Shown here one piece after another: positions 4,862 through 24,838 of a stretch of DNA of 64,000 bases. The DNA comes from Massilia violaceinigra (GTDB lineage Bacteria; Pseudomonadota; Gammaproteobacteria; Burkholderiales; Burkholderiaceae_D), in the NCBI RefSeq assembly GCF_002752675.1, contig NZ_CP024608.1:6696001-6760000 (forward strand), in the 5' to 3' direction. Both the position numbers and the translations under genes were made by a program. Under the pieces are notes generated by a model. The model was not told the origin of the DNA. It searched no databases and saw only the letters and a list, made by a program, of their open reading frames with translations. Position 1 is the first letter of the stretch. The number at the start of each line of letters is the position of its first letter.

Positions 4862-4952
4862 TGGCGGAAAGGGTGAGATTCGAACTCACGGTACACCATA
4901 GATGTACACTGGATTTCGAGTCCAGCGCATTCGACCACTCTGCCACCTTTCC
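4862..4952 (-). tRNA. tRNA-Ser(CGA), copy 1
   Basis: A 91-nt class II tRNA read on the minus strand, with acceptor GGAAAGG pairing to CCTTTCC, encoded CCA (TGG at 4862-4864), the D-arm pattern GTGGCAGAGTGGTCGAATG, a long variable arm and the T-arm GTTCGAATC. The anticodon stem CTGGA/TCCAG encloses the loop CTCGAAA, giving anticodon CGA (reads UCG). It is the second of two tRNA-Ser genes downstream of serS. Confidence 0.93.
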
Positions 4953-5004: not shown

Positions 5005-5094
5005 TGGCGGAGAGGGTGGGATTCGAACCCACGGATGGGTCGCCCCATCGCTTGATTTCGAGTCAAGTACATTCGACCACTCTGCCACCTCTCC
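5005..5094 (-). tRNA. tRNA-Ser(CGA), copy 2
   Basis: A 90-nt class II tRNA on the minus strand, with acceptor GGAGAGG/CCTCTCC, encoded CCA at 5005-5007, a long variable arm and T-arm GTTCGAATC. The anticodon stem CTTGA/TCAAG encloses CTCGAAA, so the anticodon is again CGA. The body differs from copy 1 in the acceptor, anticodon stem and variable arm, so this is not a recent perfect duplication. It lies 64 bases past the serS stop, on the same strand. Confidence 0.93.
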
Positions 5095-19174: not shown

Positions 19175-20314
19175 ATGAATTATCGCACGCAAATCGTATC
19201 CTCTCTGAGCGAGATCGGACAACCCGCCTGGGACGCCCTGGCATCCTCCCAGGCCGAGACCAATCCCTTCCTCTCCTTCGCTTTTCTCGACGCCCTGCAT
19301 GAATCAGGCAGCGCTTGCCCTGATACCGGCTGGCAGCCGCAATTCCTGGTCCTGTACGACGGCGCCGAACTGGCCGCCGCCATGCCGCTGTACGTCAAGA
19401 TGCACTCCTACGGCGAGTACGTGTTCGACTGGGCCTGGGCCGACGCCTACCAGCGCAACGGCGTCGATTACTATCCCAAGCTGCTCTCGGCGATTCCCTT
19501 CACGCCGGTGACCGGGCCGCGCCTGCTGGCGCGCGACACCGCCGCGCGCGCCGCGCTCCTGGCCGCGCTGGTGTCGACCCAGAAGGCATCCGACGTCTCC
19601 TCGACCCACATCCTGTACCCGCCCGAAGACCAGGTAAAGCAGCTGGAGGAGGCCGGCTTCATGCTGCGCAGCGGCGTGCAGTTCCACTGGCTGAACGCCG
19701 GCTACCGCGATTTCGACGAGTTCCTCGCCACGCTGGAGCAAAAGAAGCGCAAGAACATCCGCGCGGAGCGGCGCAAGGTGCGCGAGGCCGGCGTGATGCT
19801 GCGCCGCGTGCGCGGAGCCGCAGCGACGGACGCCGACTGGCGCCTGTTCAACCGCTGCTACCAGCGCACCTACGCGGCGCACCGTTCCTCGCCCTACCTG
19901 AACCTGGATTTTTTCCAGCGCATCGGGCGCACCATGCCGGACAATATCCTGCTGGTGATCGCCGAGCGCGAAGGTGAACCAATCGCCGCCTCGCTGGTGA
20001 TCCACAGCGCCGACACCCTGTTCGGGCGCTACTGGGGCGAACTCGAACACGTGCCCTGCCTGCACTTCGAAACAGCCTACTACCAGCCGCTCGAATTTTG
20101 CATCGAGCACAAGATCGCCGTGTTCGAGGGCGGCGCCCAGGGCGAACACAAAATGGCGCGCGGCTTCCTGCCGACCCGCACCTGGTCGGCGCACTGGCTG
20201 GCCCACCCCGCGTTTTCGGACGCCATCGAGCGCTTCCTGGAGCGCGAAAGCGGCGGCATCGACGACTACATCGATGAACTGAACGAGCGCAATCCTTTCA
20301 AGGAACCCGCATGA
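19175..20314 (+). CDS. FemAB-like/GNAT-fold acyltransferase (DUF482-type)
   Basis: A 379-residue protein resembling the DUF482/FemAB-like family (peptidogalycan-type acyltransferases). Supporting segments are NPFLSFAFLDALHESGSA near the N-terminus, GYRDFDEFLATLEQKKRKNIRAERR in the middle, and FEGGAQGEHKMARGFLP towards the end. The physiological substrate is unknown. The ATG at 19175 (MNYRTQIVSS) was chosen because recognisable sequence starts there; a reading frame extends 63 bases further up. Its stop overlaps the ATG of the next gene (ATGA), so the two are likely translated together. Confidence 0.8.
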   Translation: MNYRTQIVSSLSEIGQPAWDALASSQAETNPFLSFAFLDALHESGSACPDTGWQPQFLVLYDGAELAAAMPLYVKMHSYGEYVFDWAWADAYQRNGVDYYPKLLSAIPFTPVTGPRLLARDTAARAALLAALVSTQKASDVSSTHILYPPEDQVKQLEEAGFMLRSGVQFHWLNAGYRDFDEFLATLEQKKRKNIRAERRKVREAGVMLRRVRGAAATDADWRLFNRCYQRTYAAHRSSPYLNLDFFQRIGRTMPDNILLVIAEREGEPIAASLVIHSADTLFGRYWGELEHVPCLHFETAYYQPLEFCIEHKIAVFEGGAQGEHKMARGFLPTRTWSAHWLAHPAFSDAIERFLERESGGIDDYIDELNERNPFKEPA

Positions 20315-20694
20315 TTTCGCATGTCTTCATCGGCGTCACCGACTTCGCGCCCGCCTTCGGCTTCTATGCGGCCCTGATGCCGGAACTGGGCCTGGCGCTC
20401 AAGTTCAGCGATCCGGCCAAGCCGTGGGCCGGCTGGATGAAGCCGGGCAGCCCGCGCCCGCTGTTCCTGATCGGCCATCCCTTCGCCGGCCAGCATGCCG
20501 CCGGCAACGGCCAGATGACCGCCCTGCTGGCGCCCTCGCGCGCCGCGGTCGAGCGCGCCCACGCCACCGCCCTCGCCCACGGCGCCACCTGCGAAGGCGC
20601 GCCCGGCCTGCGGCCCGAGTATCACGCCACCTACTACGGCGCCTACTTCCGCGATCTGGACGGCAACAAACTGTGCGTCTGCTGCCACGAGTAA
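20311..20694 (+). CDS. VOC-superfamily (glyoxalase-like) protein
   Basis: A 127-residue single-domain protein of the vicinal oxygen chelate fold: it begins HVFIGVTDFAPAFGFYAALM, has a middle HATALAHGATCEGAPG segment and ends AYFRDLDGNKLCVCCH, the usual FRDPDGN-type strand. Metal ligands of the family are partly visible (His near the start, acidic residue near the end). The substrate is unknown; such proteins include glyoxalases, dioxygenases and resistance proteins. It is translationally coupled to the upstream acyltransferase through an ATGA overlap. Confidence 0.82.
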   Translation: MISHVFIGVTDFAPAFGFYAALMPELGLALKFSDPAKPWAGWMKPGSPRPLFLIGHPFAGQHAAGNGQMTALLAPSRAAVERAHATALAHGATCEGAPGLRPEYHATYYGAYFRDLDGNKLCVCCHE

Positions 20695-20896
20695 GCGGCG
20701 CGGAAACCGGCGGCGGCCGTCAATATGCCGGTCGAAACCTTGTTCCAGCCGGAACCAGATAATCCACAACACTTGCGTCGCGACATTCCAATCAGGCGCC
20801 TCATTGAGGCAGGTCGGTTTTATCACTGACGCAGGCTGAACTCCGGCGCGCCATCCGGCCCATGATGACCTTCCAACCTCATCACCGGGAGATATC

Positions 20897-23761
20897 ATGA
20901 CGCAAGCTACCGCCAATGCAGAGGAACTGTTTCGCTTCGCCACCGCCCGGGCACCCAACCCGACACCGGCGCCAGCGGGACTCCTCGAACTGCCGGACGA
21001 ATCGAACGTCGCGGCGTGGATCGCCTCCGCCGCCAATCAGGATTTCACAGCACAACTCGAGACCCTGACCGCACGCTGGTCCGCGCTGGTCAAGCGCACG
21101 CCGGAAGCCATCGACGCCGACCTCAACGCAGCGCGCCAGGGCCAGCTGACCCTGGCCGCCGACACCCTGTTCCCGATCGCCCAGAGCGCACCGGCCGAGG
21201 TCACCCCCTTGCAGAACGACCTCTGGCAGTTCCACCTGCAAGGCATCGCCTCCGGCAAAGCCAGCACCGCCCAGTTGCAGCGCGCCCAGCAGTTGCTGGG
21301 CCAGGTCACCCTGCTGCAAAAACTGGTGGCCGGCGACCAGAACGCGCTTTCGAGCGCATCGGTGCAGGCCGCGCTCGCGCCCGCGCTCAAACTGCCGGCC
21401 GCGTTCGAGGAACAGATGCGCCTGCGCCGCGAACAGCAACATGCCCAGCAAACCGTCGCCGGCGACAACGCCGCCGAGGAAGAAGATGCCATCCTGCGCG
21501 ACCTGCTCAAGCAGATCGATACCCTGGTCCTGCTCGAAAAACGCCTGATTGCGGCGCTCGACCAGATCGCCGGCGGCGGCGCGCACACGCCCGGCATGCC
21601 AGGCACCGGCAGCCCGTCGGAACTGCAAAAAGTATTCCGCATTCAGCCCGCCGCCGACATCGACGCGCAGTTCCGCGCCGACAACGCGAACCTGATCCAG
21701 GAGCTGGCCGACGCCAATGTGCCCACCGCCACGCTGGGCGCCTACGAGCTGCTCGACGACGTGCGGCGGCGCATTTCGAACGGCGTCGCCATTGCCGCCG
21801 GCACGCCCGCCACGGGTCCGGAAGCGGCAGCCGTGCTGGCCGCCAGTCCGGAACTGGGCCAGCTTCTGCCCACCGCGCCGGTCTCGAAACCGGCCCCCGC
21901 GCCAGGCATGAAGTTCGGCATCCGTCCCGTTGGCGTGGCCGACCTGCGCGTGGTGCGCCAGGTACTGGTGGGCTACGAAAAAGGTGAGCTGGCCAATATC
22001 CACAACGTCCTGCAAGGCGAAGAGCACGAGCACTTCCGCTCGCGCCTGAGCCGCGCCGACGAAAGCCAGGGCAGTTTCAACGACGGCGACGCCGAATTCT
22101 CGCAGGAAGAGACGGGCTTCAACCGCTTCGAACTGGGCCAGTCGGCTTTCCAGACCGCGCGCAACCAGCAGGACCGCAACGCCAGCATCAACCTGACCAC
22201 CAACTATGGCGCCGTCAATGCCCAGGCATCGACCTTCATGAACAACTCGCGCGGCGGCGACCAATCGCGCGGCAACGATGTGCGCCAGTCGCGCGATCTG
22301 GTCGACCGCGCCGTGACGCTGGTGCGCGAACGGGTCGGGCGCCAGCGTTTCCTTACCCGCAGCGCCGAGGTATACCAAAGCGATATGGTGCGCCACTGCG
22401 CACCGGCAGCCAATGTGCGCGCCCAGTACCGCTGGGTCGACAAGGTGTATCAGGCGCAGGTGTTCACCTACGGCGCGCGCGCCATGTACGAGGTCATGGT
22501 GCCGGCGCCGGCGGCCATGTTCCGCCACCTGCTGGCCCGGCAGCCCGGCTTCGGCGGACATGCCGGTCCGGCCCCGATCAAGCCCACCCTGCGCCCGGCC
22601 GAGATCACCGACGCCAGCTGGCTGGCGATCGCCGACCGCTTCGACGTGACCCTGCCGCCGCCACCGACGGCCGCCATCACCGAATACGCCAGCCTGACCT
22701 ACCCCTCGGGTAGTGGCGCAACACCCGCCGTCAGCGGCGTGTTCAATTCACCCGTGGCGCTGGAACAGGGCTACGCGGCGACGGCGGCCGGCGTGTCGAT
22801 GGCCTGGTACGGGGTCGAGAACCAGTCCGGCATCACCGCCAGCATCGGCACCCGGCTGTTTTCGAGCAGCCCGGCAGGCAGCACGCCGATCGCGGCCCAG
22901 ACCATCGGCACCAACAGCGGCGCGGTCAGCTACAACGCCAGCGGCTGGGGCCAGCTGGACCAGTTCACGGTCAATTTCTACTTGGTCTGGACCCGCACCA
23001 AGGTGGCGGTCGAGAAGTGGCAGCTGACGTGCCACCAGATCATCATGGACCAGTACGAAAGCGACCTGAAACAGCAGCACGCCCGGCTGGCCGCGGCGCG
23101 CGCCGACGAAAAAGGTCCCTACGCTGCGCTGGGCGAAGAACAGATGCGCACCATCGAACGCACCGAGCTCAAACGCGCGGTGCTGGAAATCGTGCGCAGC
23201 GGCAGCGGCCGGGCCGCGCCGGCCTCGCCCATCATCCAGGGCGCAATACCGGCCATCGCGCCGGAGCGGCTGGAGCAGGCGGCGCGCGAAGTGCGCTTCT
23301 TCGAGTACGCCTTCGAGTGGGATCAGCTGACCTACAGCTTCTTCCCGTATTTCTGGAGCGAGGGGTCGCAGCAATGGGCCGCTTCCCGGTTCGAGCAGCA
23401 GGGCGACAGCGTGTTCACGGCTTTCCTCAACGCCGGCTTTGCGTCGGTGATCCTGCCGGTGCGCAGCGGGTATGAAGATGCCGCCGCGCTGTACCTGCAG
23501 ACCGGGATCGTGTCCGACATCGCGGTGGTGCCGGCCGACCAGGTGCTCGCCGACCTGAATCGCGAAGTCCAGCTGGTCAACCGCACCACGCCGATGGAAG
23601 GAACGCCGGAAGGCGCGGCATGGGCCTACCGCGTGCCAACCACGCTGATGGTGCTCGATGACGGTACCGACATCGCGTTCCCGAAGCTGGCGGTGCCTGC
23701 GGGCCAGGAAGAAACCATCCTGATTCCACCGCTGGTGATCGACGGGAAGCCGGAGGACTAA
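20897..23761 (+). CDS. Large orphan cytosolic protein of unknown function (954 aa)
   Basis: A 954-residue protein with no signal peptide and no membrane segments. It starts with GGGAG upstream of the ATG. Residues 1-330 are Ala/Gln-rich and helical, with coiled-coil-like stretches. Around residues 350-385 is the striking motif VGYEKGELANIHNVLQGEE, and around 520-560 are RWVDKVYQAQVFTYGARAMY and EVMVPAPAAMF. A beta-rich central part precedes the C-terminal segment FFEYAFEWDQLTYSFFPYFW (about 800-820) and FLNAGFASVILPVRSGYEDA. From memory these motifs occur in very large uncharacterised proteins of scattered bacteria; no function is known to me. The gene stands alone, with a 202-bp upstream region and a palindromic repeat after its stop. 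Confidence 0.85.
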   Translation: MTQATANAEELFRFATARAPNPTPAPAGLLELPDESNVAAWIASAANQDFTAQLETLTARWSALVKRTPEAIDADLNAARQGQLTLAADTLFPIAQSAPAEVTPLQNDLWQFHLQGIASGKASTAQLQRAQQLLGQVTLLQKLVAGDQNALSSASVQAALAPALKLPAAFEEQMRLRREQQHAQQTVAGDNAAEEEDAILRDLLKQIDTLVLLEKRLIAALDQIAGGGAHTPGMPGTGSPSELQKVFRIQPAADIDAQFRADNANLIQELADANVPTATLGAYELLDDVRRRISNGVAIAAGTPATGPEAAAVLAASPELGQLLPTAPVSKPAPAPGMKFGIRPVGVADLRVVRQVLVGYEKGELANIHNVLQGEEHEHFRSRLSRADESQGSFNDGDAEFSQEETGFNRFELGQSAFQTARNQQDRNASINLTTNYGAVNAQASTFMNNSRGGDQSRGNDVRQSRDLVDRAVTLVRERVGRQRFLTRSAEVYQSDMVRHCAPAANVRAQYRWVDKVYQAQVFTYGARAMYEVMVPAPAAMFRHLLARQPGFGGHAGPAPIKPTLRPAEITDASWLAIADRFDVTLPPPPTAAITEYASLTYPSGSGATPAVSGVFNSPVALEQGYAATAAGVSMAWYGVENQSGITASIGTRLFSSSPAGSTPIAAQTIGTNSGAVSYNASGWGQLDQFTVNFYLVWTRTKVAVEKWQLTCHQIIMDQYESDLKQQHARLAAARADEKGPYAALGEEQMRTIERTELKRAVLEIVRSGSGRAAPASPIIQGAIPAIAPERLEQAAREVRFFEYAFEWDQLTYSFFPYFWSEGSQQWAASRFEQQGDSVFTAFLNAGFASVILPVRSGYEDAAALYLQTGIVSDIAVVPADQVLADLNREVQLVNRTTPMEGTPEGAAWAYRVPTTLMVLDDGTDIAFPKLAVPAGQEETILIPPLVIDGKPED

Positions 23762-23796: not shown

Positions 23797-23906
23797 ACCG
23801 TCGTTCCCGCGCCAAGGCGGCACTCGGCGGGAACCCAAGTTTTCTGTGTAGCCCGCGAGTGCGCTACGAACTTGGGTTCCCGCCGTCGCGGGAAGTCGTT
23901 CCTGCC
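23797..23906. repeat. Long palindromic intergenic repeat R2
   Basis: The left arm (23797-23841) and right arm (from 23869) are inverted copies of ACCGTCGTTCCCGCG ... CCCAAGTT; the right arm has lost about a dozen bases compared with R1. It lies between the convergent 954-residue protein gene and the LysR gene, and the LysR reading frame runs into its right arm. Confidence 0.8.
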
Positions 23907-24838
23907 AGTGGCATGGAACGACGAGTTGCAGGCTCCTCCTTCCCGTGCACGAACAGCGACGGCTGCCGGTCCGAATACTCCCTCAGCAAATTCCACACCG
24001 CCCGCACCCGCTGCAGGCGGTACAGATCGGTCGGCGCGGCCAGCCAGAACGAGCGCTCCGCAAAAAACTGGTCGAGCACCGGCACCAGCCGGCCATCGTC
24101 CGGCACCGCATACGGCGGCGCCATGATCAGCCCCATCCCCAGCGACGCCGCCTCCACCTGCGCAGTCATCCCGGTGCAGCACAGGCGGCGCCTCGGCGTG
24201 AATCCCAGTTCATTGAGATAACTGAGCTCGCGGCTGGCCAGCCGGTCCTGCACGTAATCGACAAAATCGTGGCGCGCCAGGTCGGCATGCTCGCGGATCG
24301 GCGGATGGCGCGCCAGGTAGTCGGGCGATGCGTACAAATAGAAACGGAACGACGCCAGCCGCGTGATCATGTAGCGCCCGGTGCTGGGCGGATCGAGCAT
24401 GACGCCCAGGTCGGCCTCGCGGTTGGCCAGGTTGGCAAAGCGCGGCAGCACCAGCAGATCGATGCTCAGGTCGGGGTGGGTCTGCAAGAGGCCAACCAGC
24501 AGCGGCGCCACCACGCGCACGCCGAACACTTCCGGCACGCCGAGCCGCACCACACCGTGCGCCGCCACTTCGGTGCCGCCCAGCTGCTCGGTGGCGGCCA
24601 GCGCCGCGCTTTCCATCGCTTCGGCATGCGGCAGCAGCGCCTGGCCCATGTCGGTGAGCTCATAGCCTTCGCGGCTGCGGTCGAACAAGGTGGTGCCGAG
24701 CTGGATTTCGAGCCGGTCGATGCGGCGCGCCACCGTGGTGTGCTCCACCTCCAGCCGGCGCGACGCGCCCGACAAGGTGCCGGCGCGCGCCAGCTCCAGA
24801 AAGAAACGCAGGTCTGTCCATTCAGGCAAGGTATTCAT
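23864..24838 (-). CDS. LysR-family transcriptional regulator
   Basis: A 324-residue regulator with an N-terminal winged HTH (LRFFLELARAGTLSGASRRL, then VEHTTVARRIDRLE) and a C-terminal substrate-binding domain (GVVRLGVPEVFGVRVVAPLL). It is divergent from the TonB-receptor/hydrolase/ABC-importer genes, and the usual logic of the family predicts that it controls them together with itself in response to a small molecule from that pathway. The 267-bp intergenic region contains a perfect 24-bp palindrome. The last ~11 residues (TTSRDGGNPSS) are encoded by repeat R2, so the C-terminus has probably been altered by the repeat's arrival. Confidence 0.9.
   Translation of the reverse strand: MNTLPEWTDLRFFLELARAGTLSGASRRLEVEHTTVARRIDRLEIQLGTTLFDRSREGYELTDMGQALLPHAEAMESAALAATEQLGGTEVAAHGVVRLGVPEVFGVRVVAPLLVGLLQTHPDLSIDLLVLPRFANLANREADLGVMLDPPSTGRYMITRLASFRFYLYASPDYLARHPPIREHADLARHDFVDYVQDRLASRELSYLNELGFTPRRRLCCTGMTAQVEAASLGMGLIMAPPYAVPDDGRLVPVLDQFFAERSFWLAAPTDLYRLQRVRAVWNLLREYSDRQPSLFVHGKEEPATRRSMPLAGTTSRDGGNPSS

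Follow-up and report, generated by a model that had tools for sequence, protein, structure and literature searches.

RESULTS

The gene and its product

This study concerns a 64,000-nucleotide stretch of DNA from Massilia violaceinigra (contig NZ_CP024608.1, positions 6,696,001 to 6,760,000; here called the window) and, within it, a gene on the plus strand at positions 20897..23761 that the open reading frame (ORF) list, homology, and the ratio of nonsynonymous to synonymous substitution (dN/dS) mark as genuine. It belongs to what we call the carrier family, after the role proposed for it below. Its 954 codons encode a protein of 954 amino acids (aa), P0001, and are preceded by a good ribosome-binding site, GGGAGA (20887..20892, plus strand), 4 bases 5' of the ATG. 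Inspection by eye found neither a signal peptide nor a membrane segment in P0001; on these points we agree with the original prediction, which was made from the sequence alone. Upstream lies a gene for a small glyoxalase-like protein (20311..20694, plus strand), outside the system and syntenic in the genus; downstream is a convergent gene for a LysR-type regulator (23864..24838, minus strand), at the position held by a partner gene in most relatives. Both neighbors were assigned by eye. P0001 is the sole carrier detected in the window's genome.

An AlphaFold model of P0001 (mean pLDDT, 77.5; pTM, 0.67) bears out the predicted helical first third and beta-rich middle: helices at about residues 38 to 323 are followed by long strands at 343 to 386 and 489 to 536, a beta-sandwich at about 593 to 699, and then a C-terminal alpha/beta domain; the insertion between the long-strand pairs 343-386 and 489-536 is poorly modeled. 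By the model and the alignment, residues 1 to 335 (20897..21901, plus strand, as are the features that follow) comprise an N-terminal LFRF strand and a variable helical domain. This region is the least conserved among close orthologues, and the stretch corresponding to residues 12 to 346 ranges from 151 to 501 aa across 95 sequences (length counts cover 95 of the 96 alignment rows, the truncated L059 having been dropped). Residues 336 to 550 (21902..22546) form the core, in which two long-strand pairs are arranged around a helix-hairpin-helix arm and which contains the motifs KGELANIHNVLQGEE and RWVDKVYQAQVFTYG. An amphipathic beta-hairpin lies at residues 424 to 451 (22166..22249), turning at Y437-G438 (most relatives have YGP here), and residues 701 to 935 (22997..23701) make up the C-terminal alpha/beta domain, where the motif FFEYAFEWDQLTYSFFPYFW is highly conserved. 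All three of the strong local motifs quoted in the original prediction are present, and they fall in conserved family regions.

The arm is nearly constant in length. The stretch corresponding to residues 375 to 438 has a single length in 93/95 sequences; behind the turn, residues 438 to 513 are looser, the commonest length being found in 53/95. The whole core domain measures 217 residues in 49 of 67 sequences and 215 in the window protein. In L020 numbering, by our own count, about 60 residues lead out to a Tyr-Gly-Pro turn, which is almost invariant, and about 60 lead back. Both strands by the turn alternate hydrophobic and polar residues and are amphipathic in 64/67 and 67/67 sequences, respectively. 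A facing amphipathic pair of equal strength arose in 3 of 2,000 column shuffles, in a test that was conceived after inspection of the alignment, whereas a single amphipathic window of equal strength was common by chance (61 of 200 shuffles). In one member, L075, most of the hairpin is missing.

Foldseek and VIA searches with the whole model returned no significant fold and, in line with the original prediction of an undescribed family, no confident structural match to a known enzyme family. The beta-sandwich (residues 590 to 700) resembles dozens of unrelated sandwiches. With the arm domain as the query, 20 of the first 22 Foldseek rows were beta-barrel pore chains, many of which repeat one and the same pore and all of which fall below significance; the top row was an aerolysin fold (E value, 0.087; probability, 0.08), obtained with a low-confidence model of the core. 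Like the aerolysin and lysenin-like pore formers, the core model has an amphipathic hairpin inserted among long antiparallel strands. Unlike them, the carrier has additional helical N-terminal and C-terminal domains, a coencoded partner in its relatives, and no sequence match to these toxins, which are approximately two to three times smaller.

A large and patchily distributed family

P0001 had no match in Pfam, PHROGs, NCBIfam, PADLOC, or the PDB sequences, a result that excludes no family; profile searches against the PDB gave just weak matches in the helical N-terminal part, which were taken as coiled-coil noise and included no B component of a binary toxin. Relatives were nonetheless numerous. 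A protein search, in which the 7,995 best candidates were scored, found at least 37 proteins, including the query, the remote members of which share 23 to 29% identity across approximately 62% of the query. Scanning genome contigs gave 178 relatives, from which 79 distinct loci were kept; one more locus from viral contigs completed a set of 80. When the core of a cyanobacterial member was used as the query, at least 684 proteins were found, and members from Nitrosomonas, Vibrio, Streptomyces, and Cohnella were 66 to 76% identical to that core. Among the 120 matches listed, those with names were all "hypothetical protein," bar one "AraC-like DNA-binding protein." Literature searches, which covered no preprints and few subscription papers, found no paper on the family or on the gene pairing described below. 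The carrier family is therefore large and undescribed, much as the original prediction had supposed; it had also placed similar motifs in very large proteins only, and this did not hold, because the relatives are mostly of similar size (790 to 1,225 aa).

The hosts belong to several bacterial phyla and include two archaea, Methanosaeta and Methanoperedens. On a tree of the carriers, built quickly from the 96-row alignment without a mixture model and with long branches flagged, the host phyla need 26 changes against a minimum of 11. This scatter is compatible with horizontal transfer and does not prove it. The window-lineage proteins form a fully supported five-row group on a long branch. Loci outside the alignment, such as L043, are absent from the tree.

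By their database names, the close relatives of P0001 come from Massilia and Telluria. Within the genus, orthologues were found in 8 of 17 genomes (the window's own counted). Six are 80 to 85% identical to P0001, with dN/dS values of 0.28 to 0.37, and a remote one is 48% identical, with a dN/dS of 0.62; the LysR neighbor, measured in four genomes, gave 0.04 to 0.16. The carrier gene is thus genuine and under purifying selection, yet fast evolving. Carriers were found in at least 11 of 195 genomes of the taxonomic family to which the window belongs (8 of these from the same genus, its own counted), at least 4 of 299 genomes of its phylum (own counted), and at least 12 of 200 genomes, one of them marginal, of the order of an Actinomadura genome; all of these prevalence figures are lower bounds. 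The distribution of the family is rare and patchy.

Pairing with a downstream gene

A neighborhood survey showed that relatives of P0001 lie directly upstream of interchangeable effector-like genes. Of the 80 loci, 78 had at least 1 kb of downstream sequence, and in 73 of these an ORF of at least 300 aa started between -40 and +150 nucleotides (nt) from the carrier stop codon on the same strand, with a median gap of 13 nt. Random 190-nt windows in the same loci satisfied the ORF criterion in 392/1,520 cases, because GC-rich genomes abound in shadow ORFs. The count of 73 itself contains such ORFs (L002, L004, and probably L065, L066, and L079), the real partner being in another frame or unclear. 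A stricter measure, a partner with a homologue at the same position in another locus, was found at 60/78 loci, or 56/78 when the likely shadow ORFs at L002, L004, L065, and L066 were subtracted. Several loci are near copies of one another (L033/L034/L036/L037, L017/L064, L014/L015, and L068/L073/L078). The 73 ORFs fell into 27 BLAST groups, 14 of which had two or more members.

In the examined loci the partner is a separate downstream gene and is not fused to the carrier. At L016 (10001-13987), the carrier ORF continues into its partner, of the His-Cys type described below, via an apparent frameshift near its end, which may be real or a sequencing error.

Little else recurs around the carriers. 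Within 10 kb, the recurrent clusters at a constant distance are partners or ORFs antisense to partners; two other, unassigned clusters are scattered in position (13 and 5 loci), in a survey that annotated part of the carriers' neighbors. Recurrent third genes were limited to a 461- to 531-aa gene (three loci), LodB-like genes, and a 104-aa ORF found in two near copies, the last being the only recurrent small third gene among the 73 loci, in a comparison that unique immunity genes would escape. At L010, L027, and L040, which come from different phyla and include one archaeon, two conserved nameless genes of approximately 340 to 360 aa and 460 to 530 aa come after the carrier.

The window lineage departs from this pattern: no real same-strand downstream partner was found at any of its 8 loci (the window plus seven others). 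A 407-aa ORF at L096 was considered as a partner and judged to be a shadow ORF opposite the LysR gene. The description of the window gene as solitary therefore holds for its own lineage and fails for the family at large, and since the original prediction rested on the solitary case only, the pairing with effector-like genes escaped it.

Identity and exchange of the partners

The partners are of many unrelated kinds. A Pfam scan of 28 partners from paired loci gave 8 matches above the cutoff, 2 below, and 18 partners without a match. Those above the cutoff were LodA (L014), patatin (L017), PLD (PLDc; L043), M23 (L033), PAD (L061 and L050), and the PT-TG pre-toxin domain (L020 and L019); an Rv2525c-like glycoside hydrolase (L012) fell just below it, and PhoD (L030) also fell below. 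By eye, and unconfirmed, a recurrent partner of 340 to 370 aa has His and Cys residues in motifs (GHGW ... WGCAF) reminiscent of clan CD peptidases, and the partners at L018, L022, L026, and L028 are reminiscent of HET-C; Pfam lent no support to either assignment, bar a subthreshold DUF4347 match in L093. Among 10 partners, NCBIfam gave a single meaningless subthreshold match, and PDB sequence searches with three partners found nothing of note. At all three LodA loci a LodB-like flavoprotein gene, recognized by eye, comes next. In lod operons the LodA and LodB genes are found together (PMC4417212).

Partner types do not track the carrier tree. With 19 types on 64 rows, the partner type changes 28 times against a minimum of 18, and PAD, patatin, His-Cys, HET-C-like, and other partners recur on separated carrier branches; the labels were assigned partly by eye (the His-Cys group, the HET-C-like group, and groups named after loci). 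The pair form has thus been kept while the partner has been exchanged.

A conserved first protein followed by interchangeable effectors, patatin and PLD among them, is the pattern of sensor-effector antiphage defense systems, and the carrier loci share it. The carrier could accordingly be an intracellular sensor that activates a variable killer enzyme. The patchy distribution in the window's phylum would fit, and when 10 partners were scanned with PADLOC, the patatin partner matched three models of phospholipase effectors, whereas the PLD partner matched several models of DrmC over short stretches. However, PADLOC matched neither the carrier nor the other 8 partners, the carrier has no Pfam domain and hence no nucleotide-binding domain, and M23 peptidase and LodA partners fit targets outside the cell. 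On balance, we consider a defense role improbable.

The same LodA and M23 partners, which could act extracellularly, raise another alternative, namely, that the carrier belongs to the surface or matrix and presents enzymes on the wall of the producing cell itself. Some relatives have additional domains that would suit action outside the cell: P0147 contains LysM, L081 has a subthreshold F5/8 type C match at its C terminus, and the C-terminal extensions of L072 and P0016 look peptidoglycan binding by eye, with no Pfam match. Wall display would leave the near-constant arm and its amphipathic tip unexplained, however, and no signal peptide or anchor was seen by eye; we rate it as a poor candidate.

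PAD genes also occur apart from carriers. In the 200 genomes of the Actinomadura order, nine had a PAD match; two of these genes lie directly behind a same-strand carrier, and seven are in genomes without a carrier match. In the PAD proteins directly behind carriers at L115 and on contig G697:C32 (open frames of 965 and 1,018 aa), the match to the PAD model is broken into several separate stretches; in most other PADs of the order it is continuous, and their genomes contain no carrier. The split-match PADs possibly bear on the origin of citrullinating enzymes. Actinobacterial PADs have been described (PMC8826395), in a paper whose main text, by a term search, does not contain "operon," "toxin," or "neighbouring gene."

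Carriers and contractile injection systems

The original prediction also speculated that the protein might be left over from a larger particle, such as an extracellular contractile injection system or an encapsulated assembly. A related possibility is that the carrier has a structural or scaffolding role in an extracellular particle, either an extracellular contractile injection system (eCIS) or a phage-tail-like particle, with the downstream gene as its cargo. The eCIS marker Pvc16_N was sought in 46 carrier genomes (that of the window and 45 others selected from among the 80 loci) and was found in 13, the window's among them. The 33/46 genomes without a match are an upper bound, because some are drafts. 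In the window's taxonomic family the marker was commoner in carriers (5/11) than in noncarriers (27/184, one of the 27 below the curated cutoff; Fisher P, 0.02), an association that is weak and perhaps a genome-size effect.

Other observations that favor a particle are the phage tail proteins among the Foldseek matches to the long-strand fold and a divergent second carrier copy (L092; genome G008, contig 33), behind which lie a gene for a phage tail Collar protein and, farther away, a GH25 lysozyme gene (both by Pfam). The marker in the window's genome (G000:C1:5148994-5149512) is approximately 1.5 Mb from the carrier gene, however, and the only clusters that recur at a constant distance from carriers are partners and their antisense ORFs. 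With the marker in just 13/46 carrier genomes, the proposed relic is unsupported, an eCIS as the delivery machine for the family is largely rejected, and a scaffold role in any such particle appears distinctly unlikely. L092 also adjoins an apparent YcaO/TOMM peptide cluster, and L107, L109, and L110 have Collar-like partners together with a different N terminus (all by eye).

DISCUSSION

In this study, we have shown that relatives of P0001 are usually encoded directly upstream of an interchangeable enzyme- or toxin-like gene, and the protein therefore probably helps its partners to enter other cells or act on them. A conserved protein whose first domain varies, whose arm resembles a membrane probe, and whose next gene is freely exchanged is best explained as an effector carrier. 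We tentatively favor, as a reading that falls somewhat short of probable, a modular two-gene effector system of which the family protein is the carrier half, possibly pore forming. The computations show directly that the family exists, that its genes are closely paired with a partner on the same strand, that partner types are exchanged, and that the arm has an amphipathic tip; partner binding, oligomerization, membrane insertion, pore formation, translocation, and an extracellular target or action are steps that we infer.

It can be proposed that, in the relatives, the carrier and its variable partner are probably made together and that docking or targeting most likely falls to the variable N-terminal domain. 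The conserved core would probably oligomerize, and the long, near-constant arm, with the amphipathic beta-hairpin at its tip, would insert into a membrane or build a beta-barrel conduit, allowing the partner to act on or enter another cell. Since no partner is encoded next door in the window lineage, its carrier would act either alone, as a pore former, or with a partner encoded elsewhere. That no immunity genes recur would fit targets that differ from the producer, subject to the caveat given above. The weakest point of this proposal is that no export signal was seen by eye in either the carrier or the partner, and release may therefore need lysis or an unfamiliar export route.

A bolder form of the proposal is a self-contained bacterial and archaeal delivery device, with its own beta-barrel conduit and plug-in cargo, that operates independently of the known secretion and injection machines and that some lineages retain as the carrier only. 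We regard this version as rather unlikely.

The effector carrier proposed here is reminiscent of the B components of binary AB toxins of the protective antigen, Ib, and CDTb type. As in those toxins, the carrier gene of the relatives of P0001 adjoins a separate gene, for a partner that may be an enzyme, and the model places an amphipathic beta-hairpin between long strands; these pores were also among the best, although insignificant, Foldseek and VIA rows for the carrier. Unlike the B components, the carrier has no sequence match to them in Pfam, the PDB, or PDB profile searches and no signal peptide by eye; its range of partners and hosts, which includes archaea, is wider; and the window copy has no adjoining enzyme gene, although an enzyme of known type stands behind some of its relatives. 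Likewise, polymorphic toxins combine a conserved delivery part with an exchangeable effector, and the PT-TG pre-toxin domain occurs in two partners; in the carrier system, however, the effector is a separate gene and not a C-terminal tip. The likeness to eCISs is limited to the marker held by some carrier genomes, the window's included; most of the genomes tested lack it.

If the carrier is indeed half of an effector system, hundreds of hypothetical proteins would belong to one delivery system with exchangeable cargo, a modular effector locus common to bacteria and archaea that lies outside the known secretion systems. The partner gene would then point to new effectors, including PAD, LodA, lipases, and many proteins without annotation, and the carrier-linked bacterial PAD and LodA-type enzymes would gain a route or purpose. 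Even if no pore is formed, the gene pairing provides a direct, testable clue to a family for which no literature was found.

Surroundings of the gene in the genus

Among the seven genus loci with wider flanks, the LysR gene lies 3' of the carrier gene in six, the seventh contig ending 1.6 kb downstream, and the glyoxalase-like gene lies 5' of it in 6/7. At positions 20690-20896 of the window, apparently just the 3' end of a regulator gene remains; in L095, L111, and L113 a small membrane protein and an XRE-like regulator are encoded at this place (by eye). A pair resembling a ribbon-helix-helix antitoxin and a ParE-like toxin (by eye) separates the carrier and LysR genes in L111 (7042-7634) and L114 (5462-6037). 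The insertions beside the carrier gene in other strains showed only a regulator, a small membrane protein, a toxin-antitoxin-like pair (all by eye), and further ORFs, namely, a 570-aa ORF common to G003 and G008 and a few unassigned ORFs in G010. Elsewhere in the window, two tandem tRNA-Ser genes, both with the anticodon CGA, lie on the minus strand at positions 4862-4952 and 5005-5094.
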